Shown here: piece after piece, positions 30,318 to 62,316 of the stretch | How the letters are laid out: every line of letters begins with the position of its first letter | Numbering within the stretch: position 1 is the stretch's first letter | Origin: an uncultured Lentisphaeria bacterium | GTDB taxonomy: Bacteria > Verrucomicrobiota > Lentisphaeria > Victivallales > Victivallaceae | Direction: 5' to 3' | Length of the DNA stretch: 64,000 nt | Assembly: GCA_949298075.1 (NCBI GenBank) | Contig: CASFVA010000007.1 | Location: 1 to 64,000, forward strand | The notes under the pieces: model-generated | Databases searched by the model: none | What the model was told of the DNA's origin: nothing | The model's input: the letters and a program-made list of their open reading frames with translations, nothing else | Position numbers and translations under genes: made by a program

Positions 30318-30371
30318 TTGCATGCGCCATCCTGCAATACTATAATATATCAGAGGCCGGATTTATATCAA
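30318..30371. promoter_or_regulatory. Overlapping divergent promoters of araC-type gene and GH2 gene
   Basis: Plus strand: TTGCAT (30318-30323) and TATAAT (30341-30346), 17-base spacer. Minus strand: TTGATA (30366-30371) and TATATT (30344-30349), 16-base spacer. Two direct TATATCA heptamers (30346-30352, 30364-30370), 18 bases apart, could be the regulator's sites. Confidence 0.6.
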
Positions 30372-44873: not shown

Positions 44874-46226
44874 TTAGAGCTTTTCCACGGCGTCGTTCAG
44901 TACCCGGCGGACCAGCCGGACAATCGGAAAATCCGGCAGCCCGGCGAGGCGTTCCGCACCGGCCCGGAGCCGGGATGCGTCCGCGCCGGGGATGAAGTGG
45001 TCGTTGAGAATGGCCGCGATTTCCGCATAGACGGTATCCGGAACCGTCAGCAGCGGCGGCGGTTCCGGCGGATCCGGTTCCGGGGCCGCCGCCGCATAGT
45101 CGGCCGCGCTCCGGCCGGCGATCCGGCCGAACACCAGCACTTCCAGTCCGGCGTTGCCGCCGATCCGGTCGCGACCATGCACCCCGCCGGCGGCCTCACC
45201 GGCGGCGAACAGCCCGGGAACGGAGGTCGCTCCGCCGGCGTCAATGCGAATTCCCCCTAACGTGGTATGGGCTCCGGGACGGACTTCGAACTTCAGCTCC
45301 CGAAACGACGGTGTCAGTTTCCGGAACCGGCGGTAATACCCCGGATACCGTTCCGCGAAAACGGATTCGTCCAGCTGTGACAGATCGTAGCAGATGCCGC
45401 CGTGCGGCAGGGCCCGTCCGGCATTGATGGCGTGCTGAATCAGTTCCGCCAGCCGCCGCTTGGGCGGCACCGGTTCCCCGGGATCGAGCAGGGAAACGCC
45501 GTGGCGGTCGAGCAGGCGCGCCCCTTCATGCAGCAGGGTCGTGATGACGGGGAAACCGGACAGCGACTCCGGATGGACAGTGACGGTCGGTTCAAACTGT
45601 ACCAGTCCGGGATCGCGCAGCTCGGCCCCGGCTCCGATCGCCAGCAGCAGGGCGTCTCCGCGCAGTTGCTTGCTCCACGAGCTGAATTTCCAAAGTCCGG
45701 CGAAGCCACCGCCGGCGAGAATGACCGCCCGGGTCCGGAGAGTTGAACCATCCGCGAATTGCGCTCCGGCGATCCGTCCCCCTGAGGTCAGCAGCCGCAC
45801 TACCCGGCGCGGTTCGACCGGAGCGGCCAGACACCGCATGGCCTGAAGTCCGGTGGAGGTGCCGGAGTGCACCACTCTCGGAAAACTGGAGCCGACCGCG
45901 TGCCGTGTGTCGTAGCTGCCGTCGGCCTTCCGGTCGAATGCCACGCCGAGGGTTTCGAGGCGGCGCAGTTCCGGCCGGGCGTGAATCGCGAGCGCGTGGA
46001 CCAGTTCCGGATCGGCGGCGCCGCCGCCGGAGCGCAGCGTGTCGCGCTCCAGCGCTTCGGGCGAATCGCCGGGAGCGACCGGGACCGAGAAACCCATGAT
46101 CTCCGGACTGGCCGCGCCGCCGGCATCGACAATCCGCACCCGCAGGTCCGGAGCACATTCCCGCAGTTCGGCCGCGGCACTCAGCCCGGTCAGCCCGGCG
46201 CCGACGATCAGCACGTCGGTGGACAT
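44874..46226 (-). CDS. FAD-dependent oxidoreductase (fumarate reductase/L-aspartate oxidase family)
   Basis: A 450-residue flavoprotein. The N-terminal DVLIVGAGLTGLSAAAEL binds FAD; HTTLGGIRID and GLFAAGEAAGGVHGRDRIGGNAGLE are the FrdA/NadB-type catalytic and FAD segments. It is shorter than fumarate reductase and lacks its C-terminal helical domain in full. It begins seven bases after the dehydratase stop. In this operon it may oxidise or reduce an intermediate of sugar-acid breakdown; no substrate is proposed. Confidence 0.85.
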   Translation of the reverse strand: MSTDVLIVGAGLTGLSAAAELRECAPDLRVRIVDAGGAASPEIMGFSVPVAPGDSPEALERDTLRSGGGAADPELVHALAIHARPELRRLETLGVAFDRKADGSYDTRHAVGSSFPRVVHSGTSTGLQAMRCLAAPVEPRRVVRLLTSGGRIAGAQFADGSTLRTRAVILAGGGFAGLWKFSSWSKQLRGDALLLAIGAGAELRDPGLVQFEPTVTVHPESLSGFPVITTLLHEGARLLDRHGVSLLDPGEPVPPKRRLAELIQHAINAGRALPHGGICYDLSQLDESVFAERYPGYYRRFRKLTPSFRELKFEVRPGAHTTLGGIRIDAGGATSVPGLFAAGEAAGGVHGRDRIGGNAGLEVLVFGRIAGRSAADYAAAAPEPDPPEPPPLLTVPDTVYAEIAAILNDHFIPGADASRLRAGAERLAGLPDFPIVRLVRRVLNDAVEKL

Positions 46227-46232
46227 GGCCGC

Positions 46233-47894
46233 CTACTCCCAGATCGCGCCGTTGGCCAGCGAGCCGACGTTGCGGCAGAAAATCCGCAGAAACGGCGGAA
46301 TTCCCTCCGGATTAAACTTCCACTGCCAGTTTTTGCGCCGCTCGGCCAATTCCTGCTCCGGCACCGCCAGATCGAGGCGCCGGGCATCGAGGTCGATATC
46401 AATGCGGTCGCCGTCGCGCACCAGGGCCAGGGGACCGCCCAGCGCTGCCTCCGGCGACAGATAGCCGATGGCCAGTCCGCTGGAGCCGCCGGAAAAGCGT
46501 CCGTCAGTCACAATGGCCACATCGTGCGCCAGGTTGCGTCCCTTGAGTTCCTTCTGGAAAACGTAGGCGGTCGTGCCGAACGCCCCCTTGGGGCCGAGGT
46601 AACGCAGCACCGCGACGTCTCCGGCGACGATCCGTCCGGCGTTCAGGGCGTCGAGAGCGGCTTCAAGCGAATCGAAACACTTCGCCTTTCCGGAAAAACG
46701 CCGCATGGTTTCATCGCACGCCCCGGATTTGATGATCGCGCCGTCCGGCGCGAGCGAGCCGTAAAGTACGCTGAGCGCTCCTTCGACAGTCACCGGGCGG
46801 TCGAGCGTGCGGATGATTTCGGTGTCGTAGATTTCGGCATCACGGCAGTTTTCCTCCAGGGTGCGGCCGGTGACGGTCAGCGCGCCGCCATGCAGTTTCG
46901 GCATGAGGTTTTTCAGCACCGCCCGCGAACCGCCCGCCCGGTCGATGTCCTGCAGATGCCACGGACCGCTCGGGGAGGCGGCCACAATCTGCGGAACCTC
47001 CCGTGACGCCCGGTCGAAGACCGCCCACCATTTGCCGTGCAGTCCGGCTTCATTGGCGATGGCGGGCAGATGCATGAAAAGATTAGTCGAACCGGCCATG
47101 GCCATGGTCATGGCGATGGCGTTTTCCACGCTGTCGCGGGTGATGATCCGGCGGGCGGTGATGCCGCGACGCAGCAACTCCATGACCTGGAGTCCGGCCC
47201 GGTACGCGCACTGCAGCAGTTCCGGACTCATTGCGGACATGCCGCCGTTGCCCGGCAGCGTCATGCCCAGCGCCTCGGCCGCAAGGCACATGCTGTTGGC
47301 GGTGGTCATCACGCCGCAGGCTCCGCAGCTGGCGTACATGCAGGAGACTTCCCGTTCCGCCTGTCTGCGGTCGTATTCGCCGCTCATGACACGTCCGACG
47401 TGATCGGTCAGTTCGATGTAGTTCGCGCTGCGGCCGTCAACAAAAGTCATCGGCATGTAGCCGCCGGTCACCATGACGGTCGGAATGTCAAGCCGGGCCG
47501 CGGCCATGAGGTGTCCCGGCACGATGGAGTCGCAGGTTGAGAGCAGCACCATGGCGTCAAACATGTTGCCTTCGACGATGAGTTCGACCTCGTCGGCGAT
47601 GAGGTTGCGGCTGGGCAGCTCGATGTAGCGCGGATTCTTGAGCACCATGCCGTCGCAGATGCCGCTGGTCATGACTTCGAACGGCAGACCGCCGGCTTCC
47701 CGGACGCCCTGTTTGACCCGCTCGGCGAGCGCCCGCAGATGGACGTGCCCGGGGTTGTATTCGTTCCAGGAGTTGACCACCGCCACGATCGGCCGCCGGA
47801 ACTCCTCCTCGGTATAGCCCATGCCGCGAACCAGTCCCCGGCGGCATTCGCGCGCCACCCCGTATTCACTGTCACTGCGCTCATTGATTTTCAT
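46233..47894 (-). CDS. IlvD/Edd-family dehydratase
   Basis: A 553-residue iron-sulfur dehydratase. STCDSIVPGHLMAA and CGACGVMTTANSM carry expected cluster cysteines; the early NEYNPGHVHL has Gly-His where pentonate dehydratases have a cysteine, so it belongs to the PGH subtype. KGAFGT and GRFSGGSSGLAIGYLSPEA are family C-terminal motifs. AAGGAGG precedes ATG at 47894. Neighbours (SDR, flavoprotein, glycosidase) point to a sugar-acid dehydratase rather than branched-chain amino acid synthesis. Confidence 0.9.
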   Translation of the reverse strand: MKINERSDSEYGVARECRRGLVRGMGYTEEEFRRPIVAVVNSWNEYNPGHVHLRALAERVKQGVREAGGLPFEVMTSGICDGMVLKNPRYIELPSRNLIADEVELIVEGNMFDAMVLLSTCDSIVPGHLMAAARLDIPTVMVTGGYMPMTFVDGRSANYIELTDHVGRVMSGEYDRRQAEREVSCMYASCGACGVMTTANSMCLAAEALGMTLPGNGGMSAMSPELLQCAYRAGLQVMELLRRGITARRIITRDSVENAIAMTMAMAGSTNLFMHLPAIANEAGLHGKWWAVFDRASREVPQIVAASPSGPWHLQDIDRAGGSRAVLKNLMPKLHGGALTVTGRTLEENCRDAEIYDTEIIRTLDRPVTVEGALSVLYGSLAPDGAIIKSGACDETMRRFSGKAKCFDSLEAALDALNAGRIVAGDVAVLRYLGPKGAFGTTAYVFQKELKGRNLAHDVAIVTDGRFSGGSSGLAIGYLSPEAALGGPLALVRDGDRIDIDLDARRLDLAVPEQELAERRKNWQWKFNPEGIPPFLRIFCRNVGSLANGAIWE

Positions 47895-47924: not shown

Positions 47925-49646
47925 TTAAACCCGGATGAACGACAATCCGCCAATCCGGTGCCCGTCACATTCGACCTGGTCGGCGTTGAAGTTGAAAATG
48001 AGTACCGATCCGTCGGCGTAGACCACTTTGAAGACGCCGGGAGCGGCTTCTTCGAAATCATCCATGAATTCAAATTGCAGATCGCTGATGGTCCGGAACC
48101 GCTCGTAGTCGGCCTTGATGCGGCCGACATCCGCCGCAAGCTGTTCCGGCGTCGTGAATCCGAGATCTTCTTCGCCCATCCAGTTGGTGCCCGAGGAAAG
48201 AAACTTGGCGTAAAAGTAAGACAGCGGCCGGCCGCCCCACGCCAGATTCAGCAGGGCCAGGCGTCGGTCGGATTTGATTGCAGCGTTCACCGAGTCGCAG
48301 CAGACGTTGTAGTGGACAATCCCGTGATAGACCAGGTGCCAGAACGGAATGTGCCGGTCGATCAGCGGCCGCGGCCGTTCGCCCTGAAGATGGAAGATCG
48401 TGTACAGCACATAGTCCAGGTCGCCGATGCAGAAGTCCAGTGAACCCTCCGAACCGCTGGCTCCGACGGTTTCGCGGGCGAGTGCGAGGGTCCGGCCGCG
48501 CCAGTAAGCCGACTCCCGGCGGCTCAGCGGATGGCGCGGATCATAGCACTTTTCCGGTTCCAGAATGCTCATGACGTCAAGGTAGTGAGTTCCGTAAAAT
48601 CCGAGCCGGCGCATGGCCGCCATGTCCTCGGCGGCGTATTGCCTGTGCGCCATTTCAGGACACAGGAAACGGGACTTCCCGCCGCCCCAGTCGCCGCCCA
48701 GCATGATGGAGCCGTCCCGCTGGCGCAGACAGTTGTCGGCGTTCCAACGTTTGGCGATCGTGTAGGAGTCGAGCAGATTGGTGTGGGCGCAGATCAGATA
48801 GCCGTAGTTCCGGGCCTTGCGGATGACTTTTTCAAGCGCGGCTTCGCCGCCGAGCAGCGGTTCGACCGGGAAGAGGTCCGGGAAACGGCCGTCGTGCCCG
48901 GACTTGTTCCAGCCGACCAGGCAGAATTCCGCATGCTCAATTCCCTGCCGGTGAAACTCATCGATGATTGCCTCACACTGCCGGAAGGTGATTGCAACGT
49001 GAATCGGCGGTTCAGTTGCCTCCGTCTGGTCCGGAACCGGTGATGGCACCGGCTTCCAGGCCAGGCGGATCCGGACCTCGGGACCGAGTGCCGCTTCGCC
49101 TGCCGCCGGAAACGTGCGGCGGCGGTCACGCAGCGGCGAGCAGGCGCCGCGATCGAGCTGATACTGCCGGTAGCGCCGGGCCGCTCCCTGCCAGCAGGCG
49201 TCCCGTCCGGAGAGTTCAAAGAATTTCACTTCGATATCCTCGTCGGCGGCATCGCCGTCCAGAATGAAGCGGGGATAAAGGTAATAGATGCCGTCGCGGA
49301 CTCCGGCGATCAGGACGTAGTCCAGCGGCATGCCGGTGACGACGGCGAGGGTGGCGCGGTCGCCGTATTGCCGGAAATAAAGCGGCATATCGCTGCATTC
49401 AAATTCGCACTCCTGATTTTCCCGCCGGAAAAAGCGGATTTCGCCGGCGTGGCCGTTGCGTTCGACGCTCGGTACGACAAAGCATCCCGGAGTGCCGGCG
49501 GCGGTATTGAAGAAATCCGGCAGAAAATCGATGAAATTGACGGCCTCCGGCAGGTCGCGTTTCGCCAGCAGCGCTGAATTGCCGGTCATGGTTACCGGCA
49601 GGTTGCGCACCGTGCCGTCACAGAGGGTGAGCCGGGCAGTGTACAT
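47925..49646 (-). CDS. TIM-barrel glycosidase-like protein (DUF5696-like)
   Basis: A 573-residue protein with no signal peptide. The N-terminal part is beta-rich; the middle (about 215-430) looks like a TIM barrel with AEFCLVGWNKSGHDGRFPDLFPV, SYTIAKRWN, GTHYLDVMSIL and DFCIGDLDYVL, resembling DUF5696 proteins related to endo-alpha-N-acetylgalactosaminidases. The C-terminus is beta-rich. Catalytic residues are not assigned. Second gene of the SDR operon, so it probably releases the sugar that the dehydrogenase then oxidises. Confidence 0.55.
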   Translation of the reverse strand: MYTARLTLCDGTVRNLPVTMTGNSALLAKRDLPEAVNFIDFLPDFFNTAAGTPGCFVVPSVERNGHAGEIRFFRRENQECEFECSDMPLYFRQYGDRATLAVVTGMPLDYVLIAGVRDGIYYLYPRFILDGDAADEDIEVKFFELSGRDACWQGAARRYRQYQLDRGACSPLRDRRRTFPAAGEAALGPEVRIRLAWKPVPSPVPDQTEATEPPIHVAITFRQCEAIIDEFHRQGIEHAEFCLVGWNKSGHDGRFPDLFPVEPLLGGEAALEKVIRKARNYGYLICAHTNLLDSYTIAKRWNADNCLRQRDGSIMLGGDWGGGKSRFLCPEMAHRQYAAEDMAAMRRLGFYGTHYLDVMSILEPEKCYDPRHPLSRRESAYWRGRTLALARETVGASGSEGSLDFCIGDLDYVLYTIFHLQGERPRPLIDRHIPFWHLVYHGIVHYNVCCDSVNAAIKSDRRLALLNLAWGGRPLSYFYAKFLSSGTNWMGEEDLGFTTPEQLAADVGRIKADYERFRTISDLQFEFMDDFEEAAPGVFKVVYADGSVLIFNFNADQVECDGHRIGGLSFIRV

Positions 49647-49669: not shown

Positions 49670-50458
49670 TTAAATCATGGCATCAATGGCACCATCAATG
49701 GACTGGCCGCCGTCAATTACGAAAGTTTGTCCGGTGATGAAGGCGGATTTCTCATCGTCGGCGAGGAACAGCATCATCGGGGTGATGTCCGCGACTTCCC
49801 CGAGCCGGCCGAGCGGAATTTTCCGCTTGAAGGCGGCCAGCTCCGCCGCGGTGTAGCGGGCGGAAATTTTGGTCATGACAAAGCCGGGCGCGATGGCATT
49901 GACGTTGATGCCGTACCTGGCCACCTCAACCGCAAGCGCCCGGGTGAACATGTTGAGTCCGGCCTTGCCCGGCGAGTAGGGCAGCATTTTGCGCCGCACC
50001 CAGGTGACCAGCGAATGGATGGAGCTCACGTTGATGATTTTGCCCCGGACGCCGTGCTCAATCATGTGCCGCACCGCAATGCGCGAGGTGTAGGCGGCGG
50101 CATTCAGGTTGAGATCGATCTGGCGGTTCCAGTAGTCCACCGGCATGTCGATGAAACCGCCCTCCGGAATTTTCAACGCTCCGCCGGCGTTGTTGACGAG
50201 CACGTCAATGCCGCCGAATTCCGCAATGAAGTTCCGGACCAGCTCCTCGCTCTGGTCCGGATCACTGACGTCGGCCTGATAGACCGCCGTCCGTTGGCCG
50301 AGGCGGCGGATTCCGGCTGCGACGGCCTCGGCTCCTTCCGGGTTTTTGCAGAAGTTGATGCCGACCTCGCAGCCTTCGGCCGCGAACGCCAGCGCCGTGG
50401 CCGCGCCGATGCCATGGGATGAACCGGTTATCAGCACCCGTTTGCCTGTTACTGCCAT
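49670..50458 (-). CDS. Short-chain dehydrogenase/reductase
   Basis: A 262-residue classical SDR. TGSSHGIG (11-18) binds NAD(P), NNAG is at 89-92, and Ser145/146, Tyr161 and Lys165 (YSPGK) form the catalytic set. It is the first gene of a four-gene leftward operon and follows a promoter with a TATATCA-type operator. It could oxidise a sugar to a lactone (glucose-dehydrogenase-like) or act as a ketoreductase. Confidence 0.92.
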   Translation of the reverse strand: MAVTGKRVLITGSSHGIGAATALAFAAEGCEVGINFCKNPEGAEAVAAGIRRLGQRTAVYQADVSDPDQSEELVRNFIAEFGGIDVLVNNAGGALKIPEGGFIDMPVDYWNRQIDLNLNAAAYTSRIAVRHMIEHGVRGKIINVSSIHSLVTWVRRKMLPYSPGKAGLNMFTRALAVEVARYGINVNAIAPGFVMTKISARYTAAELAAFKRKIPLGRLGEVADITPMMLFLADDEKSAFITGQTFVIDGGQSIDGAIDAMI

Positions 50459-50484: not shown

Positions 50485-50502
50485 TATATCAACGATGATA
50501 TA
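50485..50502. promoter_or_regulatory. Operator TATATCA-N4-TGATATA upstream of the SDR operon
   Basis: Two perfect 7-bp arms (8 bp if the flanking T/A is counted) at the transcription start just after the -10. The same sequence occurs at 58008-58025. Confidence 0.75.
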
Positions 50503-50530
50503 AATATACGGCATAAAAAACGATAGTCAA
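50503..50530 (-). promoter_or_regulatory. Promoter of the SDR operon
   Basis: Minus-strand TTGACT (50525-50530), 16-base spacer, TATATT (50503-50508). An AAAAAACGG element abuts the -35. Confidence 0.75.
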
Positions 50531-50547
50531 CCGTTTTTTCGGAAAAA

Positions 50548-51687
50548 TCAGAAAAATTTCTCAAATGCGAGCCGGGCCGCTCCGATGGCGGATTGAAATT
50601 CACCGAGAGCGGTGATGTCGATGAAACATTTGCACCGCTCCGGCGGCAGGATGTCACCGAGTTTGCTGAGCGTGGCGTTGAACAGAGCGCCGCCGGTCCG
50701 GCTCTGGCCGCCGGAAAAAATCAGCGCTTCGGGGGAATAAAGCTGAATCATCATGGCGGCGCCGGCCGCGTTGTATTCGGCGGCCCGGTTGATGATCGCC
50801 AGCGCATCGGGATCGCCCTGAGCTGCGGCCCGGTCGAGTTCGGGAGCGCCGTGCAGTTCCGGGCGGTCGGGAAGGGACTCCATGGCCACCTGCCGGAGAT
50901 TGCGGGCACCGCTGTAAGCCTCGAGGCAGCCGCGGAATCCGCAGGTGCATCGCCTGAGGTTGCCCGGGATCAGCGTGTGACCAATGTAGCCGACCGGTCG
51001 CCGTGGATGGCTGATCAGAAGCAGGTGATTGGCAATGACCCCCGAGCCGATGCCGACACCCAGGCCGATGGTGACCAGGTTGCCGCAGCCGGCGCGGCGG
51101 CCGAAGTGGTATTCGGCGCAGACGGCTGCCACCTGGGTGGTGACGGCGTAGGCGGGGGTGCCGAGCCGTCTGACGAGTTCCGCCACCGGCAGGTGGGCTC
51201 CCTGTTTCAGCCCCCAGTTGCCGCCGGAAACGATGATGTTTGCTTCGGAATCCACGATTCCGGAGACGGCGATTCCGGTTCCGAGCAGCCGGTCCGGCGG
51301 CAGTCCTGATTCCGCCAGCGCGGTCTGGAAAAGTCCGGTCACCCAGTTGAAGAAACGCTCTTCGGAAGTGAAAGGCTCCGTCGGCCGGATGAAACGGCTG
51401 CGGATTTTGAAATTGAGATCGCAGAATATGATCCTGGTACTCTCCGCCCCGATGTCCATTCCAGCCCAGAACCCGGCGTCGGCATTGACCGTCAGCGGTA
51501 CGCTGGGGCGGCCCGGGGTGGTGGTTCTGCCCTGGCGGGCCAGCAGCAGTCGGCGGTCCACCAGATCATTGACCACTTTGCACATCGTTCCCCAGGCGAG
51601 GCCGGTGGCGGCGGCGATGGTTTTTTTCGAGGCCTCGCCGTTGCCGCGGCGCACCGCGTCAAGAACTTTTACCGCGTTGGACGGCAT
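50548..51687 (-). CDS. ROK-family transcription regulator
   Basis: A 379-residue regulator: N-terminal winged helix (KKTIAAATGLAWGTMCKVVNDLVD), then a ROK sugar-kinase-like domain with the zinc motif CTCGFRGCLEAYSG and the DIGAESTRI phosphate loop. It sits directly upstream of the SDR operon and has its own promoter containing a TATATCA half-site. It is the best candidate for the protein that binds the TATATCA palindromes; the ligand should be a sugar or sugar phosphate. Confidence 0.9.
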   Translation of the reverse strand: MPSNAVKVLDAVRRGNGEASKKTIAAATGLAWGTMCKVVNDLVDRRLLLARQGRTTTPGRPSVPLTVNADAGFWAGMDIGAESTRIIFCDLNFKIRSRFIRPTEPFTSEERFFNWVTGLFQTALAESGLPPDRLLGTGIAVSGIVDSEANIIVSGGNWGLKQGAHLPVAELVRRLGTPAYAVTTQVAAVCAEYHFGRRAGCGNLVTIGLGVGIGSGVIANHLLLISHPRRPVGYIGHTLIPGNLRRCTCGFRGCLEAYSGARNLRQVAMESLPDRPELHGAPELDRAAAQGDPDALAIINRAAEYNAAGAAMMIQLYSPEALIFSGGQSRTGGALFNATLSKLGDILPPERCKCFIDITALGEFQSAIGAARLAFEKFF

Positions 51688-51747
51688 GAAGTTTTCCCTT
51701 TGATTGTCCGGCTGCCGGCTGGGACAGTTCCGGTGTTTTTTCCCAGT

Positions 51748-51775
51748 AATATATCATGATTGCCGATTTCTTCAA
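51748..51775 (-). promoter_or_regulatory. Promoter of the ROK regulator gene
   Basis: Minus-strand TTGAAG (51770-51775), 16-base spacer, TATATT (51748-51753). A TATATCA heptamer (51750-51756) overlaps the -10. Confidence 0.6.
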
Positions 51776-51815
51776 GGCGGAATGCCGGGCAGAGGGGAGG
51801 AAAACAATCCCGGGA

Positions 51816-52793
51816 TCAGACCGGCAGGCCGAGCCGGCCGAGATTCTGCCGCAGACGAAGCAGCGCGTCGGCATATTCCGTCCGGATCACGCCGGTCCGG
51901 TCCGGCGGCACGTTCAGCAGCAGATTGGCTCCCCTGGACCGCGTCACCAGATACATGCCGAGCAGTTCAGCGTCGCTGCGCGGGGGATCGTTTTCCGTGA
52001 AAAACCATTCCATTCCGATGGTGTCGCTGACTTCAGCCGGCAGATAATAACGGCGGTTTTCGATATCCCGCCACTTGATCTGACCGGCGCTGCGGGGCAG
52101 CCCCCGTTCGACCGCCATGATGTCGGCGGGAAAGGCCAGCTCATAGGGGTAGTGTTCGCCGTCCCCGAAACTGTTGTTCATCATGACCACCGCCTCCGGA
52201 GCCAGCCGTCCGGCCAGGTCGTAGAGCCGGTGCCGGAAATGCCGGGGCAGAATGGATGGGATGTCGATCCAGATTTCCCCCCAGCCGGAGTAATCGGTCA
52301 GCAGCTCCGCGACCTGACGGTATTCGAAATCCAGATATTCTCCTGTCAGGTAGGCTTTCCGGTGGGGGTGTTCCACCGGTACGGCGTCGCTCGGGGTGAC
52401 GGAACCGAACCGGTGATGGTTGTCCCATGAACAGTAATAAAAACCGGGCATCAGACCGAGACGGCCGCATTCATTGAGAAAAATCTCCACCACGTCGGCC
52501 GGACAGCCGCTGTTGCCGACGTGGTAGTCCGTATACCGGCTGGGCCACAGGCAGAATCCCGAAACGTGCTTGGCGGTCAGCACTGCGTATTTCATGCCGG
52601 CGCGGGAGGCGGTTTCCAGCCATTGCCGAACGGACAGCCGATCCGGAGCATACAGCGTCGGCGGCGCCTGGCCGTCGGAGAGTTCCGCTCCGTCGAAGGT
52701 GCTCATGCCGAAGTGGATGAACATGCCGTAGCCAAGTTTTTCCCAGGCCTGAAGTTTCTCCAGACTCAGGCGCTGGTCTCCCTGGTGGTTCAT
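51816..52793 (-). CDS. GH29 alpha-L-fucosidase
   Basis: A 325-residue catalytic domain of family 29. IHFGMSTF (26-33), the KHVSGFCLW segment (75-83) and GEIWIDIP (172-179) are signature motifs; Asp177 is the expected nucleophile. The usual C-terminal beta-sandwich is missing, and no signal peptide is present, so it acts on imported fucosides. AGGAG lies upstream. It follows the URO-D-like gene by 79 bases. FucI at 28 kb would take the released fucose. Confidence 0.88.
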   Translation of the reverse strand: MNHQGDQRLSLEKLQAWEKLGYGMFIHFGMSTFDGAELSDGQAPPTLYAPDRLSVRQWLETASRAGMKYAVLTAKHVSGFCLWPSRYTDYHVGNSGCPADVVEIFLNECGRLGLMPGFYYCSWDNHHRFGSVTPSDAVPVEHPHRKAYLTGEYLDFEYRQVAELLTDYSGWGEIWIDIPSILPRHFRHRLYDLAGRLAPEAVVMMNNSFGDGEHYPYELAFPADIMAVERGLPRSAGQIKWRDIENRRYYLPAEVSDTIGMEWFFTENDPPRSDAELLGMYLVTRSRGANLLLNVPPDRTGVIRTEYADALLRLRQNLGRLGLPV

Positions 52794-52872
52794 ATGTCAG
52801 TTTAAACTCCTGAAGTTTTAAAGTTCAATTTTACCGGCGGGGGCCGCGGTGGAACCGGGAGCCGCTTCCGGT

Positions 52873-53865
52873 TCAGGCCGGCTCGTGGAACACGGTCAGA
52901 TTTTCCAGCGGCGTATCCGGCGTGATTTCGCAGCCGCCGGAAAGGATCAGACGGCCGGGGGCCTGGGCCAGAACCGTGCGGACGGCGGCGGCGATGTCGG
53001 TGCGGCTGCCGTTCTGCAGCACAGTGACCGGGTCGAGGTTGCCGCAGAAGAACTGGTGCGGCGCCAGCAGACGGACAAATGGCGACATGTCGCGCACTCC
53101 GTGATCAATGTCGATGATGTCGGCTCCAGTTGCGATCATGAGCGGAATAATGGCTGTGGTGTTGCCGCAGATGTGCAGCTTGGCCAGCGCTCCGCGGGCG
53201 TGAATGCGGTCGACCAGCCGCTTTTCCCCGGGCCAGGCGAAGTCCCGGTAAAGCTCAGCGCCGATTTGGGAACAGGCCGCGTCCCCGATGCCGATGCAGT
53301 CGGCGCCGGCGTCAAGCTGGGCGTCGATGAAACGTTCGGCCGTTGCGGTGATGTTTTCCAGCGCAGCGTGCATCCGGTCGGGAAAATCGTAGAAATCCAG
53401 GAAGGCGTTGCCGATGCCGCGCAGGTCGCAGTATTCGGCGACAGGACCCTCCACCCAGCCGGTGATCAGATATTCTCCGGCACAGGTGCGGCGGTATTCC
53501 CGGATTTGTTCAAGCCGGCCGGCGGTACGGCGGTTATCCGGCAGCCGCGGTTCGGGGAGGCGCTCCAGATCCCCGATTTCCGGGCAGAGGATCACTTCAT
53601 TGAGCGGCAGATCGTTTTCGACGTACTCAATCTCGGCTCCGTAGGCGTCCAGTTCGCAGTAGGGGTCGCTCATGGTGTTGACCCAGCAGGAACCTACCCG
53701 TCCGGCCAGGGCGGTATTCGCCGCGCAGTGGGCCCGGGGGTCCAGCACGAAGTCGCGGTACCGGAGCCCTGCGAAGCCGGCGCAGTAGCGCATGAAAATC
53801 GGCATGAAGGGAACCCGGTCGCTTTCGCGGTTCATGAAGGCGAGGAGCTGCTGTTTCAAAGTCAT
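52873..53865 (-). CDS. Uroporphyrinogen decarboxylase-family protein
   Basis: A 330-residue protein with the URO-D/MtaA/CmuA TIM-barrel fold: VPFMPIFMRYCAGFAG, AGADCIGIGDAACSQIG, KLHICGNTTAIIPL and FCGNLDPVTVLQ. The HICGN segment with a cysteine resembles corrinoid methyltransferases rather than true HemE. Many PVC genomes carry such proteins next to glycosidase genes with no known role. Here it lies between a double-SIS protein and a fucosidase. Confidence 0.85.
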   Translation of the reverse strand: MTLKQQLLAFMNRESDRVPFMPIFMRYCAGFAGLRYRDFVLDPRAHCAANTALAGRVGSCWVNTMSDPYCELDAYGAEIEYVENDLPLNEVILCPEIGDLERLPEPRLPDNRRTAGRLEQIREYRRTCAGEYLITGWVEGPVAEYCDLRGIGNAFLDFYDFPDRMHAALENITATAERFIDAQLDAGADCIGIGDAACSQIGAELYRDFAWPGEKRLVDRIHARGALAKLHICGNTTAIIPLMIATGADIIDIDHGVRDMSPFVRLLAPHQFFCGNLDPVTVLQNGSRTDIAAAVRTVLAQAPGRLILSGGCEITPDTPLENLTVFHEPA

Positions 53866-53943
53866 GGTGTCATGATGCTTTCAGTCGCGTTTTCCAGCCG
53901 TCCCGTTCTGATCCGGGGCGGTAATGTGCACGGTTCCGTACCG

Positions 53944-55641
53944 TCACTGTCCGTCCGGTCCGATGGCGGACTTTTTCAGTTCGTCAAGCACAAACTGCAC
54001 CGCCGAAGGTTTTCCGGCTGGCGGAACCGGCAGGCGGCTGATTTTTTCGATCGCGTCAAAGAGTCGGAAACAGCTTTCCCGATAGTCCAGACCGCCGATT
54101 TCGGAAATCAGACGGATACCGCGATCCATAAGTTTTTTGTTGGTGACGTCGACCCAGCTCATCCAGTTGCCGGTGACGCGGCCGAGCACCACCATGATTC
54201 CGGTCGAGGCGGTGTTCAACACCAGCTTGACCGCCAGATGGTGCATGATCAGCAGCGGAGTTTCAGCTCCGGAATACTCCACCTTGAAATCGGCGGCGGC
54301 GGCGCCTCCGACCGCCAGACGGCGGACGAAGCGGAAGCCGGTGGCCGATTTCTCGAAGGCCCGCTCCAGTTCCGGAGCGCCGTCGGCTCCGACCGTCACC
54401 AGCACTGCGGCGTCGCGTCCGGTGGCGCAACGTTCTTCCGGGGATTCCCGGCCGACTTCGAATTTCAGGAGTTCGGCGGCTGAAATCAGCGGCGGATTCG
54501 TCTCAATGTTCGGCGGAGCCCCCATTGCCCGGTAATCCTGCGGCGTCCATTCCAGGCAGCGCAACGGGCGGTGCATGCCGTGTTTCCAGACTTCCGGAGT
54601 CGACCGCAGCGGATTTTTGACGAACGCCCAGGGGGCCGGTGAAGTGCGGTCGTCGCTTTTGCGGAACGGCGGCAGCATGAAAGTCGGGGAACGTTCGGTA
54701 GTGTCGGTGAAAATATCCAGCAGAAAATCGTCTGCGAAATAGGTGACAAGTCCGCCGTCGCGGTAGACTCCGGCTTCAAAATCGATGTAGGCGGCAATGG
54801 CCGGCGCTGCCGTTTCCAGCTGGTCGAGCAGCGCTCTGAAGGCCGCGGCGTAGTCGGGAACCGGGACGCCGAGCAGACCGCACATGATGCTCTCCAGCGC
54901 GGCTCCGGCCACGAGTTGCTCCGAGGTGGTGGCCTGCATCCGGGTCGAGCCGGACAGAGCCATCGGTCCGCAGTGCAGATCCAGCACCGTGACTGCCGGA
55001 TTGCAAATGGCCTGCCGGGAACGTTCCAGGTGTTCGGCCAGCAGTTCGGCCGGATTGTTGAACATCAGAAACACTCTGGCTTTGCGGCGCAAAGCTTCGT
55101 CAACCGTGCCGAGCACTGAGGAGGTTTCGCCGCCTTCGGTGATGGCGACCAGCATGTCATCCGCCGTCAGGTTGAGTTCGCGCACCTGCTGCCGGCCGAA
55201 TTCCTGATAATCTTCGAAAAATTCCACAGACCGCACGAGCGCATAATCGCCGCCGGTCATGATGCTGGCAACCTGGTCCGCGTAAGGGGAGGCGGCGGCG
55301 TTTTTGCTGCAGCAGTCGCGCCACATGCACTCGAGCAGAATGCTGAGGCGTCCGGTGGCGCCGCAGCCGGAGAAGACGATCCGGCCTCCGGCGGCAACGG
55401 TCCGGCGTCCGGCTTCGACCAGGCGGTGGAATCCGGCGCTCCGGAATATGCGTTCCGCCATATCCAGCACATTGCGGTCGACCCGCTGAAGGCAGCGGAC
55501 GCCTTGTTCGCTGCCCGCCGCGAATTCACGATCAAGGTTCCGGGTCAGCGGATTGGATTGTTCCGTCGGCAGAAATCCGAGATGAAACTGTTTTTCATTT
55601 TCAATGAAACTCGATGCCAGAAGATTGGATTGACTGCTCAT
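53944..55641 (-). CDS. Double-SIS protein of the MurQ/GKRP family
   Basis: A 565-residue protein with two SIS sugar-phosphate domains. SGCGATGRLSILL, AITEGGETSSVLGTVDEAL and GPMALSGSTRMQATTSEQL lie in the first; MHHLAVKLVLNTASTGIMVVLGRVTGNWM and TNKKLMDRGIRLI in the second. These are MurQ etherase motifs split across a protein twice as long, the layout of glucokinase regulatory protein (GKRP). It may be an etherase, a sugar-phosphate isomerase or a regulator. ATG at 55641 is chosen; an in-frame ATG at 55713 would be inside or upstream of the promoter's start region. Confidence 0.75.
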   Translation of the reverse strand: MSSQSNLLASSFIENEKQFHLGFLPTEQSNPLTRNLDREFAAGSEQGVRCLQRVDRNVLDMAERIFRSAGFHRLVEAGRRTVAAGGRIVFSGCGATGRLSILLECMWRDCCSKNAAASPYADQVASIMTGGDYALVRSVEFFEDYQEFGRQQVRELNLTADDMLVAITEGGETSSVLGTVDEALRRKARVFLMFNNPAELLAEHLERSRQAICNPAVTVLDLHCGPMALSGSTRMQATTSEQLVAGAALESIMCGLLGVPVPDYAAAFRALLDQLETAAPAIAAYIDFEAGVYRDGGLVTYFADDFLLDIFTDTTERSPTFMLPPFRKSDDRTSPAPWAFVKNPLRSTPEVWKHGMHRPLRCLEWTPQDYRAMGAPPNIETNPPLISAAELLKFEVGRESPEERCATGRDAAVLVTVGADGAPELERAFEKSATGFRFVRRLAVGGAAAADFKVEYSGAETPLLIMHHLAVKLVLNTASTGIMVVLGRVTGNWMSWVDVTNKKLMDRGIRLISEIGGLDYRESCFRLFDAIEKISRLPVPPAGKPSAVQFVLDELKKSAIGPDGQ

Positions 55642-55729
55642 TACCACACCTAATTCAGACTTGACTGCGGTCGACCGGTTCGACGTTGATGGCATGCCGC
55701 AGCGGCATTGCATCGCGGGATGCCGAATA

Positions 55730-55764
55730 TTACATTAACGTAACATACAATTTGTGCAAGTCAA
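55730..55764 (-). promoter_or_regulatory. Promoter and palindrome upstream of the double-SIS gene
   Basis: Minus-strand TTGACT (55759-55764), 16-base spacer, TACGTT (55737-55742). The near-palindrome TTACATTAACGTAA (55730-55743) covers the -10. Confidence 0.5.
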
Positions 55765-55826
55765 ATCGCGGTCATGAGGATTTTGCGGTTTTCTGCGCCG
55801 GCGCCGGCCGGGACGGCGGTTCCCGG

Positions 55827-56771
55827 TCACCTTGACACACTGTAGGCTGAGACAAAAGTCCGGGACTCCCCCGCATTGAGAGCGGCAAAACCGCTGACCG
55901 CCGGCGGCAATTGCAGATTCGGCGCATTGGTCATCCAGCTCATGGGTTCGATGCAGAAGAATTCCCGCCCGCCGCCGCCGTTCCAGCAGGCGAGATGGCG
56001 GTATTGGAGATCAAAGCGGTAACTGATGCGCCAGCCTCGCCGGAGAACCACCGCCGCATGACCGGTGCCAAGCGGAAAATGGCAGGCGATCGCCCGGGAA
56101 TGCGCGGGAATACGGCCGTCCAGCAGGTCCAGCTCGTCCGGAGCCCACGGCCGCCGGCCGCCGGTGGGAAGGCGGCGGACCGGATGCACCTCCCAGCAGC
56201 TGTCCTGATGAGGCACCTGCACGGTGGCGGATTCCTCCGGCGGCAGCAAAAAGGTGGTGTGAAAGCCGACCCCCAGCGGCATGGCTCCGGAACCGCGGTT
56301 TTCCACTGTAAGGGTGTGTTCCAGCGTCTCCGGGGCCAGCCGGTAGCGCATTTCCAGATGGAATTCGTACGGCCAGCCGGCGAATTCAGGTTCGCCGCGG
56401 GTGAAATCGCAAGCAAGGGTGACCGTGTCGCCGCTCATGGCGTCCAGCCGCCAGGGGCGCCCCAGCATCAGGCCGTGCAGGTGGGAGCCGGTCGCCGGTT
56501 CGTTGACCGGCAGCCGGCAGAGCCGCCCGTTGAAGCGGAAGCAGCCGTCGGCAATCCGATTGGGGGGCAGCAGCAGCGGTGTGCCGTGGCACTGCGGATT
56601 CGTCCGGAGTTCTGCGGAGTTCCGGGGCGGACGCAGTATTTCCAGGCCGCTCGGGCGGTGGAGCAGCCCGATCAGATTGCCGCCCGAGGCGGGAGCCAGA
56701 GTGGCGCGCCAGCAGTCCGAGGTCAGCTCCAGCAGTTCCAGGTCGTCGAGTTGGCGCCGCCGTTCCTGCAT
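55827..56771 (-). CDS. Aldose 1-epimerase-like protein
   Basis: A 314-residue galactose-mutarotase-fold protein. GGNLIGLLHRPSGLEILRPP, PNRIADGCFRFNGR, GSHLHGLMLGRPW with the conserved histidine, and FCIEPMSWMTNAPN near the end match the family. It equilibrates alpha and beta sugar anomers. Its ATG overlaps the stop of the DUF1116 gene (TGATG), so the two are coupled. Confidence 0.87.
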   Translation of the reverse strand: MQERRRQLDDLELLELTSDCWRATLAPASGGNLIGLLHRPSGLEILRPPRNSAELRTNPQCHGTPLLLPPNRIADGCFRFNGRLCRLPVNEPATGSHLHGLMLGRPWRLDAMSGDTVTLACDFTRGEPEFAGWPYEFHLEMRYRLAPETLEHTLTVENRGSGAMPLGVGFHTTFLLPPEESATVQVPHQDSCWEVHPVRRLPTGGRRPWAPDELDLLDGRIPAHSRAIACHFPLGTGHAAVVLRRGWRISYRFDLQYRHLACWNGGGGREFFCIEPMSWMTNAPNLQLPPAVSGFAALNAGESRTFVSAYSVSR

Positions 56772-57988
56772 CAGCCGAGCGCCCGTTCGAAACACGCCGG
56801 CGGAGTTCTGGCCCAGCCCACGCCGATCTGTCCGCCGGTCGTCCGGGAGAGAATGCCGCCGTGCATTTTCGGAGTGGTCCGGTGCGCCACGGCCAGTTCA
56901 GCTGAAATACCCGCCGGCGCTCCCCCCTCGGGCAGCTGCGGAATAACGAATCGGGGATTGCGTCCCAGGCAGATGGTCGCCATCTCGGCGCACTGCCGGA
57001 TTCCGTCATCCGGAGTTTCGCCGCGTTCGCGCAGCAGAGCCGGACTGGCCGCCGCGGCCAGTCCGCCGAGTCCCCAGGCTTCGACATTGCTGCTGTCGCC
57101 GAGCCAGGGCGCCGCGTCCGTCAGCGAGTCCGTCGGCGAGAAGCAGCGGCCGCTGAAGGTCGGGGCCGGAGCGGTGAACCACTCTTCGCCGCGTCCGCTG
57201 ATCTTGATGCCAAATTCGCATCCGTTGCCGCACATCGCCGTCACCAGTGTGGAACCGGTTATTCCGGACGCGGATTTCAGCGCCGCGACTGCCGAGGCAC
57301 ATCCGACATGATGCACGAAGCGGCGGCAGGAGTTGAGCCAGCTCAGCAGCGCCAGCCGGTCGGCATCGCTCAAATCCGCCGCCAGCGCCGGTTCGATCAG
57401 TTTGGAAATGAAAAGCTTGTCGGTGGCGGTCTGCCGGGTGTGTTCCTCATCGCCCATCAGCAGTCCGGCGGCGAAAAGTTCAGCCACGTCGATGCCGCCG
57501 GCCTGTTTCAGCACGAGGTCGAGCCGGGGGGCGATGAAGTCGGCGATGAATTTGAGATTGGTCAGTACCGCCGGAGTGCAGACTCCCCAGCCGCCGAGTC
57601 CGCCGCCCTGTTCTCCCTCGATCGGCGCGGCGAAACCCGGCGTTCCGGAATTTTCCTCGCGCACCGCCAGCACCGTCATGGAATAAGAGGTGATGCCCGC
57701 GCCGGGACCGCCGGAATGGAAATCGTTGGCGCAGCCGAGTTCGATTTCGCCGGACTCAATTTTGGCCGCGGTTTCGGCGTCGTCGCGGGCGAGGCCTTCG
57801 AACCGGGCCGCTCCGGCAATTCCCATGCGGTGGGGGCCGCGCATATCCCGGTATGCCACCGGCGGGCCGGAGTGCAGGATCAGGTTTTTTCTGAATCCCG
57901 GAATCAGTTTCCCGGCAGGGCCGCAGCCGATGAGTCGGGGCCGCGCTTCGATCAGGCGTTGCAGGGCGGTTTGGTCGGCGGAAATCAT
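56771..57988 (-). CDS. DUF1116 protein (AllG/YlbE-like)
   Basis: A 405-residue DUF1116 protein, the family of E. coli AllG (YlbE), a subunit of oxamate carbamoyltransferase in allantoin use. NDFHSGGPGAGITSYSM, GIDVAELFAAGLLMGDEEHTR and TAMCGNGCEFGIKISG are conserved-looking segments. The usual partners FdrA/AllF and AllH are absent; its neighbour is a sugar epimerase, so it probably serves sugar catabolism here. AGGAGC precedes ATG at 57988. Confidence 0.8.
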   Translation of the reverse strand: MISADQTALQRLIEARPRLIGCGPAGKLIPGFRKNLILHSGPPVAYRDMRGPHRMGIAGAARFEGLARDDAETAAKIESGEIELGCANDFHSGGPGAGITSYSMTVLAVREENSGTPGFAAPIEGEQGGGLGGWGVCTPAVLTNLKFIADFIAPRLDLVLKQAGGIDVAELFAAGLLMGDEEHTRQTATDKLFISKLIEPALAADLSDADRLALLSWLNSCRRFVHHVGCASAVAALKSASGITGSTLVTAMCGNGCEFGIKISGRGEEWFTAPAPTFSGRCFSPTDSLTDAAPWLGDSSNVEAWGLGGLAAAASPALLRERGETPDDGIRQCAEMATICLGRNPRFVIPQLPEGGAPAGISAELAVAHRTTPKMHGGILSRTTGGQIGVGWARTPPACFERALG

Positions 57989-58007
57989 GGGTTGCTCCTG
58001 AATTAAT

Positions 58008-58025
58008 TATATCAAATCTGATATA
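58008..58025. promoter_or_regulatory. Operator TATATCA-N4-TGATATA upstream of the DUF1116 operon
   Basis: Two perfect 7-bp arms immediately downstream of the -10, the same arrangement as at 50485-50502. Confidence 0.75.
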
Positions 58026-58052
58026 ATATAGCGCTCTGATTGGGGAAATCAA
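58025..58052 (-). promoter_or_regulatory. Promoter of the DUF1116-epimerase operon
   Basis: Minus-strand TTGATT (58047-58052), 16-base spacer, TATATT (58025-58030). Confidence 0.65.
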
Positions 58053-61254: not shown

Positions 61255-62316
61255 TTACGGCGCGGGAATGGATTCCCGCTCGATCCAGGCCGGCGCGATT
61301 TCCCGGGCCGGAAGCGGAGTGTCGGAGTTGCGGATCAGGGTCCGCAGCATCTCGCATGCACAGCGGGCGATGGCATCACGGGGGATGTAGGTGCCGGAAA
61401 GTCTGGGGCGCAGCACCGTATTGCTCTCCAGCCCGTCGATACCGACGACCGCGATGTCGCGTCCGACCCGCAGGCCGCGCTCTTCGCATACGCCGTACAA
61501 ATCGGCGGCGAAAGCGTCGCCCGCGATCAGGGCGCTGATTTTTTCGCCGCTGTCAAACATTTCGCGCAGCGCTTCGCAGCTGCTCTGGGCGGTGAAGCCG
61601 GCAAACCGCACCAGTCCGGCGTGCTGCGGCAGGCGGCGTTTCATGCATTCCTCATAAAAGTATTTTTCGCGTTCGTACAAATCCCGGGAGAAATGTTCGA
61701 CATCCGCGTGATGCAGGAAGGCGATGTCCCGGCAGCCGGCAGCGGTCAGCCGGTCAAAAATCAGGCGGATGATGGTGCGGTTGTCGATGTAGATGCTGTT
61801 GGGCAGTTTCCGCATGATGTCGGGAGAAACCGCCACGTGGGCAATGCCGTTGCGCCTGAAGTAGTGGTAGAACTCGGGATTGTCCATGAAGACGCTCAGC
61901 ACCGCCTGTCGTCGGAGTTTTCTCAGCGTTTCCTCGGCGTCGTGCAGTGAACCGCCGCAGGGGAAGATCGACACGGTAGCGCCCACTCCCTCTTCTCCCA
62001 GTTCCAGCGAGAGGTAATGGATCAGGTCGCGGACATAACCGGAGGCGTTAAGGCTTCTTTCCGTACCGAAGTAAAGGATGTCCACCACCGGGGGCAGCGA
62101 GGCGGTGGCCGCCGCTTTTTCAGTGGTATAGATGCCGCTGCCGTGAATGATGCGGACCTTTTCCGCTTTTTCCAGTTCCGCGAATACGCGGTTGAGGGTG
62201 GTCAGGCTCACTTCGAGTTCAGTTTTCAGCGTCCGCAGCGGCGGGAGCTTTGCTCCCGGGGGCAGTTCGGCAATCATGGTATTGAGTTTCTGGAGGGTCT
62301 GTTCACTCTTTTTCAT
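61255..62316 (-). CDS. GntR-type HTH regulator with a LacI-like sensor domain
   Basis: A 353-residue regulator. The first 70 residues are a GntR winged helix (LPPGAKLPPLRTLKTELEVSLTTLNRVFAELEKAEKV); the rest is a LacI-type ligand domain (SLELGEEGVGATVSIF, AGDAFAADLYGVCEERGLRVGRDIAVVGIDG). The AraR-like domain order fits sugar-responsive repressors. It has a strong divergent promoter and lies 91 bases before the DUF4091 gene, its probable target. Confidence 0.9.
   Translation of the reverse strand: MKKSEQTLQKLNTMIAELPPGAKLPPLRTLKTELEVSLTTLNRVFAELEKAEKVRIIHGSGIYTTEKAAATASLPPVVDILYFGTERSLNASGYVRDLIHYLSLELGEEGVGATVSIFPCGGSLHDAEETLRKLRRQAVLSVFMDNPEFYHYFRRNGIAHVAVSPDIMRKLPNSIYIDNRTIIRLIFDRLTAAGCRDIAFLHHADVEHFSRDLYEREKYFYEECMKRRLPQHAGLVRFAGFTAQSSCEALREMFDSGEKISALIAGDAFAADLYGVCEERGLRVGRDIAVVGIDGLESNTVLRPRLSGTYIPRDAIARCACEMLRTLIRNSDTPLPAREIAPAWIERESIPAP

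Follow-up and report, generated by a model that had tools for sequence, protein, structure and literature searches.

What places a set of otherwise unrelated enzymes under common control in an uncultured Lentisphaeria bacterium is the question raised by positions 50485-58052 of the 64,000-nucleotide stretch of DNA analysed here (the window; the start of contig CASFVA010000007.1, abbreviated C7, of assembly GCA_949298075.1, genome G000). An earlier note on this DNA had proposed that two operons, one for a short-chain dehydrogenase (SDR), a glycosidase, IlvD and a flavoprotein, the other for a DUF1116 protein and an epimerase, carry the same promoter type with the same palindrome on the start site and are probably controlled by a ROK-family protein encoded between them. 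Comparison with related genomes supports such a regulon well. Binding and repression are predicted from sequence, and the ROK protein encoded at 50548-51687 on the minus strand is likely the repressor, with TAWATC-N6-GATWTA as its operator.

Operators and promoters in the window

The palindrome TATATCA-N4-TGATATA occurs without mismatch at both 50485-50502 and 58008-58025, and a search of the window at up to three mismatches returned these two positions only. In shuffled sequences (n = 100), 0.28 matches were expected and two were reached in 5 of the 100. Operator 1, to which like operator 2 no strand is assigned, immediately follows the -10 box of the SDR-operon promoter (50503-50530, minus strand), which is composed of TTGACT (50530-50525), a 16-base spacer and TATATT (50508-50503). 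Operator 2 overlaps the last base of the -10 box of the AllG-operon promoter (58025-58052, minus strand), where TTGATT (58052-58047) and TATATT (58030-58025) are again separated by 16 bases. Both the common palindrome and the common promoter type were thereby confirmed for the two operons, and a promoter placed before an operator in the manner of the SDR promoter was also seen in the related loci L071-L073 and L076-L078.

The promoter of the ROK gene (51748-51775, minus strand; TTGAAG, 16 bases, TATATT) does contain the half-site that the earlier note had taken as a further link (TGATATA at 51756-51750, or TATATCA at 51750-51756 on the plus strand). However, this half-site shares bases with the -10 box, and the two strands of the window together contain TATATCA 11 times, four of these being the palindrome arms, so that the half-site alone means little; it was dropped as an operator for autoregulation of the ROK gene. 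Two further plus-strand heptamers, at 30346 and 30364, are spaced by 18 bases.

Rarity of the motif and conservation of the locus

At up to one mismatch, the window's own genome (2.33 Mb, 87% complete) contains three copies of TATATCA-N4-TGATATA, all on the window's contig. The third, at C7:73223, lies 15 kb further on, before a gene for a metallo-beta-lactamase (MBL)-fold hydrolase outside the window (C7:73289-74176), and three additional sites appear at two mismatches, on C14, C22 and C40. The core motif derived from the comparison, TAWATC-N6-GATWTA, has exactly three exact sites in this genome, before the SDR, AllG and MBL genes, and four additional sites at one mismatch, on other contigs; Markov sequence trained on the window gave 0, 1 and 0 core matches for orders 1, 2 and 3, respectively, per 4 Mb each. 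Many copies before unrelated genes, which according to the earlier note would speak against a regulon, are thus not what the exact core motif shows in the 2.33 Mb. In 12 genomes selected for ROK or AllG, 13 of the 19 exact core sites were found at ROK- or AllG-linked promoters, while the reversed pattern matched exactly once; this control may be biased low because it contains CTA/TAG triplets, which are rare in many bacteria.

An alignment of ROK proteins covered 13 loci from 12 genomes, labelled, where a label was given, as Lentisphaerota, Verrucomicrobiota or, for one genome, Armatimonadota. These loci contain 30 sites at up to three mismatches, 21 of which fall at two conserved places by a hand tally: 3' of the ROK gene and before the next gene (12 of the 13 loci), and between the MBL gene and AllG or FdrA (all nine loci with that pair). 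MBL, ROK, SDR, IlvD, flavoprotein and AllG genes occur together in 8 of the 13. Counted singly, SDR, MBL and AllG genes are each present in nine loci and IlvD and flavoprotein genes in eight, with L071 ending inside the SDR gene and L077 cut by the contig end at AllG; L078, L080, L081 and L082 contain none of the five. Wherever an MBL gene is present in these loci it adjoins the ROK gene, which in the relatives follows directly after it, downstream of a full operator. The region between the divergent genes has one operator, which follows a -10-like box of the AllG or FdrA gene; read in reverse, it forms the spacer of an MBL promoter (TTGAAT-16-TATATT) in the window's genome and in L071-L074. 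In the window's genome the MBL gene lies 15 kb from AllG and has retained its own site. Since the genes form a single locus in 8 of the 13 cases, the window copy is a rearranged form of one regulon. The genome of L065 encodes a second, paralogous ROK protein (L066/L078), with the variant site TATATCCAAATAGATATT before other genes; the two paralogs are a natural pair for comparing specificity.

The locus was also reached independently through AllG. A search of the class found AllG in 12 of 197 genomes, eight of them from the window's taxonomic order, and seven of these eight also encode a close ROK ortholog. The eighth, G109 (L114), has AllG, an exact core site and a partial MBL gene at a contig end. 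The ROK search (E 1e-60) found 10 of 137 genomes, including the distant G024; G064 has ROK without AllG, and G055 has ROK with an AllG fragment at a contig end. Farther away, G172 (L115) has an FdrA-AllG-acetate kinase-AllH cluster with a core site, and G179 (L117) a one-mismatch site before SDR with a ROK protein at 54%. The genomes G172, G174 and G179 share a compact flavoprotein-(FdrA)-AllG-SDR-MBL-IlvD operon whose genes are ordered differently; the loci with this arrangement are L116, L118 and L120. In G172 and G174 the operon has a ROK gene (40-41%) upstream and no TAWATC operator. L116 and L120 share an inverted repeat, TAATTAAAACATCGGTATTTTAATTA, between the ROK gene and the operon, which may be the operator of their ROK, and the L116 operon includes a DHDPS-family gene. 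No other genome of the window's genus yielded AllG, so the enzyme set is sporadic there.

The ROK protein as the regulator

The predicted repressor combines a ROK domain (PF00480, 5.9e-34, residues 75-375) with an N-terminal winged helix-turn-helix (MarR_2, 4.6e-06; 27.1 bits against a cut-off of 27), the latter also recovered by alignment with Lmo0178 and Mlc, from residue 6 or 18. The motif CxCGxxGCxE, which we take to be the zinc motif, is present as CTCGFRGCLE, with small changes in the orthologs and D for G in L083. Read by eye against kinase motifs, DIGAES would replace a GGT loop and TTQ would stand where kinases have Asp, which may mark a lost kinase signature. Sitting as a dimer on the start sites of the SDR-glycosidase-IlvD-flavoprotein operon, the AllG-epimerase operon and the MBL gene, ROK would block RNA polymerase; a sugar or an intermediate of the pathway, on binding to the ROK domain, would release it. 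The position of the sites on the transcription start argues for steric repression.

A possible trace of the contact between protein and DNA is found at residue 36, which aligns with a helix-turn-helix position of Lmo0178 and presumably sits in the recognition helix. Base 7 of the operator is A in 35 of 38 half-sites linked to proteins with Cys36 (n = 9), and in 1 of 14 linked to proteins with Tyr or Phe36 (n = 6; Fisher p 1e-8, kinship ignored).

Several observations weigh against assigning the operator to ROK. Because the 13 loci were retrieved with this protein as the query, finding it there is built in, and only the operator and the neighbouring genes are independent. Six of the 19 exact core sites in the 12 genomes lie elsewhere, three with no regulon-type gene nearby (L124, L125 and L131) and three more outside the locus at G050:C307, G064:C321 and G064:C373. 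The site of L081 is oddly placed, 5' of ROK, and L067 and L068, both with Cys36, have no site at up to three mismatches. Among the loci reached through AllG, L115 has a site yet no ROK gene in the 18 kb covered, L114 ends before any ROK could show, and L116, L118 and L120 hold the enzymes without a TAWATC-type operator, which means that the enzyme set recurs as a unit apart from it. The link of residue 36 with base 7 comes down to two changes on a tree from which the first 45 residues were left out, where one pair sits on branches with good support, and to three on another tree, and an independent-pairs test of it cannot reach significance; moreover, L117 retains A in one half, and three Cys36 half-sites have G. 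The correlation is best taken as a pointer to ROK, not as proof.

The competing explanations concern which protein, if any, reads the palindrome and to what effect. Four other regulators are encoded within about 5 kb of a site, and the comparison of regulators covered these four: a GntR-LacI hybrid protein (61255-62316), two LacI-type proteins (C7:68678 and C7:75727) and an AraC-type protein (C7:77231). Their proximity would suit one of them as the binding protein, with ROK as a bystander, and LacI-type proteins are generally known to use palindromes likewise, but among the 13 loci that keep the operator the GntR-LacI gene and both LacI genes are found in none and the AraC gene in two, at no more than 32% over about 120 residues. 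In L071-L073 and L077, looser blastp matches to the AraC protein, at 25-29% across some 100 residues, stay at the family level. As the residue-36 link also favours ROK, a neighbouring regulator is highly improbable. Still less credible, to the point of being nearly negligible, is that the palindromes are merely promoter-associated AT-rich sequence, arisen by chance or for DNA structure and read by no dedicated protein. The motif is indeed AT-rich, overlaps TATA-like boxes and has three to four weaker copies elsewhere in the genome, but the 2.33 Mb contain its exact core three times, each time within one and the same functional set, and each of the 27 aligned sites has ATC and GAT on either side of variable middle bases, although this invariance is partly built in, as the sites were picked by motif likeness.

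An activating or dual role of ROK instead of plain repression would agree with the wider roles of some ROK proteins, and the palindrome in the MBL promoter spacer could in principle assist remodelling. The SDR and AllG sites, on or just after the -10 box, occupy the classic place for steric repression, which makes such a role improbable. With the palindrome standing beside ROK orthologs in distant genomes, the four nearby regulators unlinked to it, and a residue of the presumed recognition helix tracking an operator base, the control by ROK put forward in the earlier note is supported, and ROK very probably acts at these operators on these operons.

Genes of the regulon and the predicted sugar oxidation route

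The gene calls of both operons and of ROK were upheld, and the protein previously listed as DUF1116 is AllG (PF06545). All genes of the two operons lie on the minus strand. The SDR-operon begins with the SDR gene (49670-50458; adh_short_C2, 1.8e-57), a predicted aldose 1-dehydrogenase whose best 25 matches to 229 named models all score under their cut-offs. It is followed by a glycoside hydrolase-like gene (DUF5696; 47925-49646) with remote likeness to alpha-N-acetylgalactosaminidase 5wzn, also seen in four of the relatives' loci (L074, L075, L080 and L082) and in L117, and by an IlvD/Edd-family paralog (46233-47894), a predicted sugar-acid dehydratase. A role of this paralog as the branched-chain amino-acid enzyme is unlikely, as it scores 549.5 bits against the IlvD cut-off of 618 and a full-scoring IlvD (765 bits) is encoded on C14. 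The last gene encodes an FAD_binding_2 flavoprotein (44874-46226) resembling fumarate reductase and L-aspartate oxidase, a predicted keto-deoxy acid oxidase. The second operon consists of a stand-alone AllG gene (56771-57988), predicted to act in diketo sugar acid cleavage, and an aldose 1-epimerase gene (55827-56795), the latter in 6 of the 13 loci (35-56%). The MBL protein is not a resistance beta-lactamase by its scores, which are far under the cut-offs for the best 25 of 37 models.

These enzymes most likely constitute an inducible, non-phosphorylative sugar oxidation route, in which every step is predicted from gene family and context. The aldose 1-epimerase would supply the right anomer, the SDR would convert the sugar into a lactone, the MBL protein would open the lactone, and the IlvD paralog would dehydrate the resulting acid; the SDR, MBL-fold and IlvD-family genes are linked in 8 of the 13 loci, an assignment at family level only. 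The flavoprotein may then oxidise the 2-keto-3-deoxy acid, and AllG would cleave the diketo product in place of the usual diketo-acid hydrolase.

The genes lying between the two operons, for a GKRP-like, a URO-D and a fucosidase protein, were rejected as core members (URO-D and GKRP-like in none of the 13 loci, fucosidase in one, at 28%). The GKRP-like protein (53944-55713) has 589 residues, comprising a MurQ/GKRP-like SIS domain at the N-terminus and a long extension, and is not conserved with the locus. Beyond the window, a second SDR, a DHDPS-like gene and a third IlvD paralog stand together at C7:79375-82514. Proteins encoded beside LacI-type regulators, at C7:62666 and C7:69699, have prepilin-like N-termini.

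AllG as a candidate cleavage enzyme

To our knowledge, the AllG family has been met only in allantoin breakdown. A broader and tentative proposal, which we regard as unlikely, is that AllG-type enzymes serve an unrecognised form of sugar oxidation by cleaving a 2,4-diketo-3-deoxy sugar acid, phosphorolytically where they are encoded with FdrA, acetate kinase and AllH, and hydrolytically or with another partner in the solo form. Relatives with the FdrA-AllG-acetate kinase-AllH set would carry out phosphorolysis to pyruvate and an acyl phosphate, from which the acetate-kinase-like enzyme would form ATP, as carbamate kinase does with carbamoyl phosphate. FdrA, AllG and AllH genes are adjacent in five loci (L076, L079, L083, L115 and L119); the acetate-kinase-family gene is absent from L079 and L083 and present in the other three, in the order FdrA-AllG-acetate kinase-AllH (L076:380-5423, L115:5728-11536 and L119:1-4830, the last cut by contig ends).

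In the window's own genome (87% complete), AllG was found alone, without FdrA, AllH or an AllF-AllG-AllH set, and the same absence of FdrA and AllH holds for eight AllG genomes in all (G000, G045, G132, G109, G092, G093, G094 and G179; 87-99% complete). The FAH family (PF01557) was not found in 6 of the 12 genomes searched, the window's own included; these are G000, G132, G109, G092, G093 and G094 among the solo-AllG genomes, while G045 and G179 have it. This distribution fits AllG as the cleaving enzyme, with the reservation that these are incomplete genomes and that FAH genes also have other roles.

An alternative explanation is that the enzymes have separate duties under shared control, with AllG a remnant of oxamate carbamoyltransferase. 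The single activity known to us for the family, that of a subunit of the E. coli enzyme according to an excerpt of PMC11326118, would agree with this, as would the fact that the intervening GKRP-like, URO-D and fucosidase genes are not conserved with the locus. Against this, a search with AllG alone turns up the SDR, MBL, IlvD, flavoprotein and AllG genes again, arranged differently in a compact operon (L116, L118 and L120), and 74 positions are invariant in all 12 aligned AllG proteins, solo and FdrA-linked alike, so that solo AllG is not visibly decayed. Separate duties are for these reasons unlikely.

Comparison with known systems

In a literature search of titles and abstracts, with most subscription journals outside its reach, none of those listed dealt with AllG in sugar oxidation or with this operator; the ROK regulon is of a known kind, and we take the operator and the AllG-containing gene set as new. 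The comparison yields a testable pair of regulator and operator that Lentisphaerota, Verrucomicrobiota and one Armatimonadota genome have in common, and a conserved regulon that links the AllG family to sugar oxidation. Mlc (1z6r/3bp8) and Lmo0178 (5f7r) match the window ROK by profile and have the helix-turn-helix, the ROK domain and CxCGxxGCxE in common with it, although the best match among solved ROK regulators reaches 85 bits only. According to an excerpt of PMC3750489, sugar genes are controlled by ROK regulators of Thermotoga, XylR among them. The window ROK differs from Mlc, NagC, XylR and Lmo0178 in that its regulon is an oxidative gene set, and presumably also in its predicted operator, TAWATC-N6-GATWTA.

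In E. coli, oxamate carbamoyltransferase consists of AllF, AllG and AllH and works with the carbamate kinase AllK, as given in the same excerpt of PMC11326118. The allFGHK genes thus include a carbamate kinase where L076, L115 and L119 carry an acetate-kinase-family gene, and oxalurate (HOOC-CO-NH-CO-NH2), the substrate of AllFGH, is an isostere of a diketo acid (HOOC-CO-CH2-CO-R). The predicted pathway resembles Route III for L-fucose, L-rhamnose and pentoses, as outlined in part of PMC6336799, in its acid-sugar dehydratase, its second oxidation of the 2-keto-3-deoxy acid and its splitting of a 2,4-dioxo acid into pyruvate plus an acid. The last enzymes of Route III are, according to that part, an SDR 4-dehydrogenase and an FAH-family hydrolase, a pair not encountered in the window's own genome, where the operon has one SDR and the flavoprotein and no FAH gene was found. 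The second oxidation would accordingly be performed by a predicted FAD enzyme rather than an SDR, and AllG would stand in for the hydrolase. If AllG and FdrA do cleave diketo sugar acids with phosphate, this would amount to an energy-saving version of a pathway known as hydrolytic.

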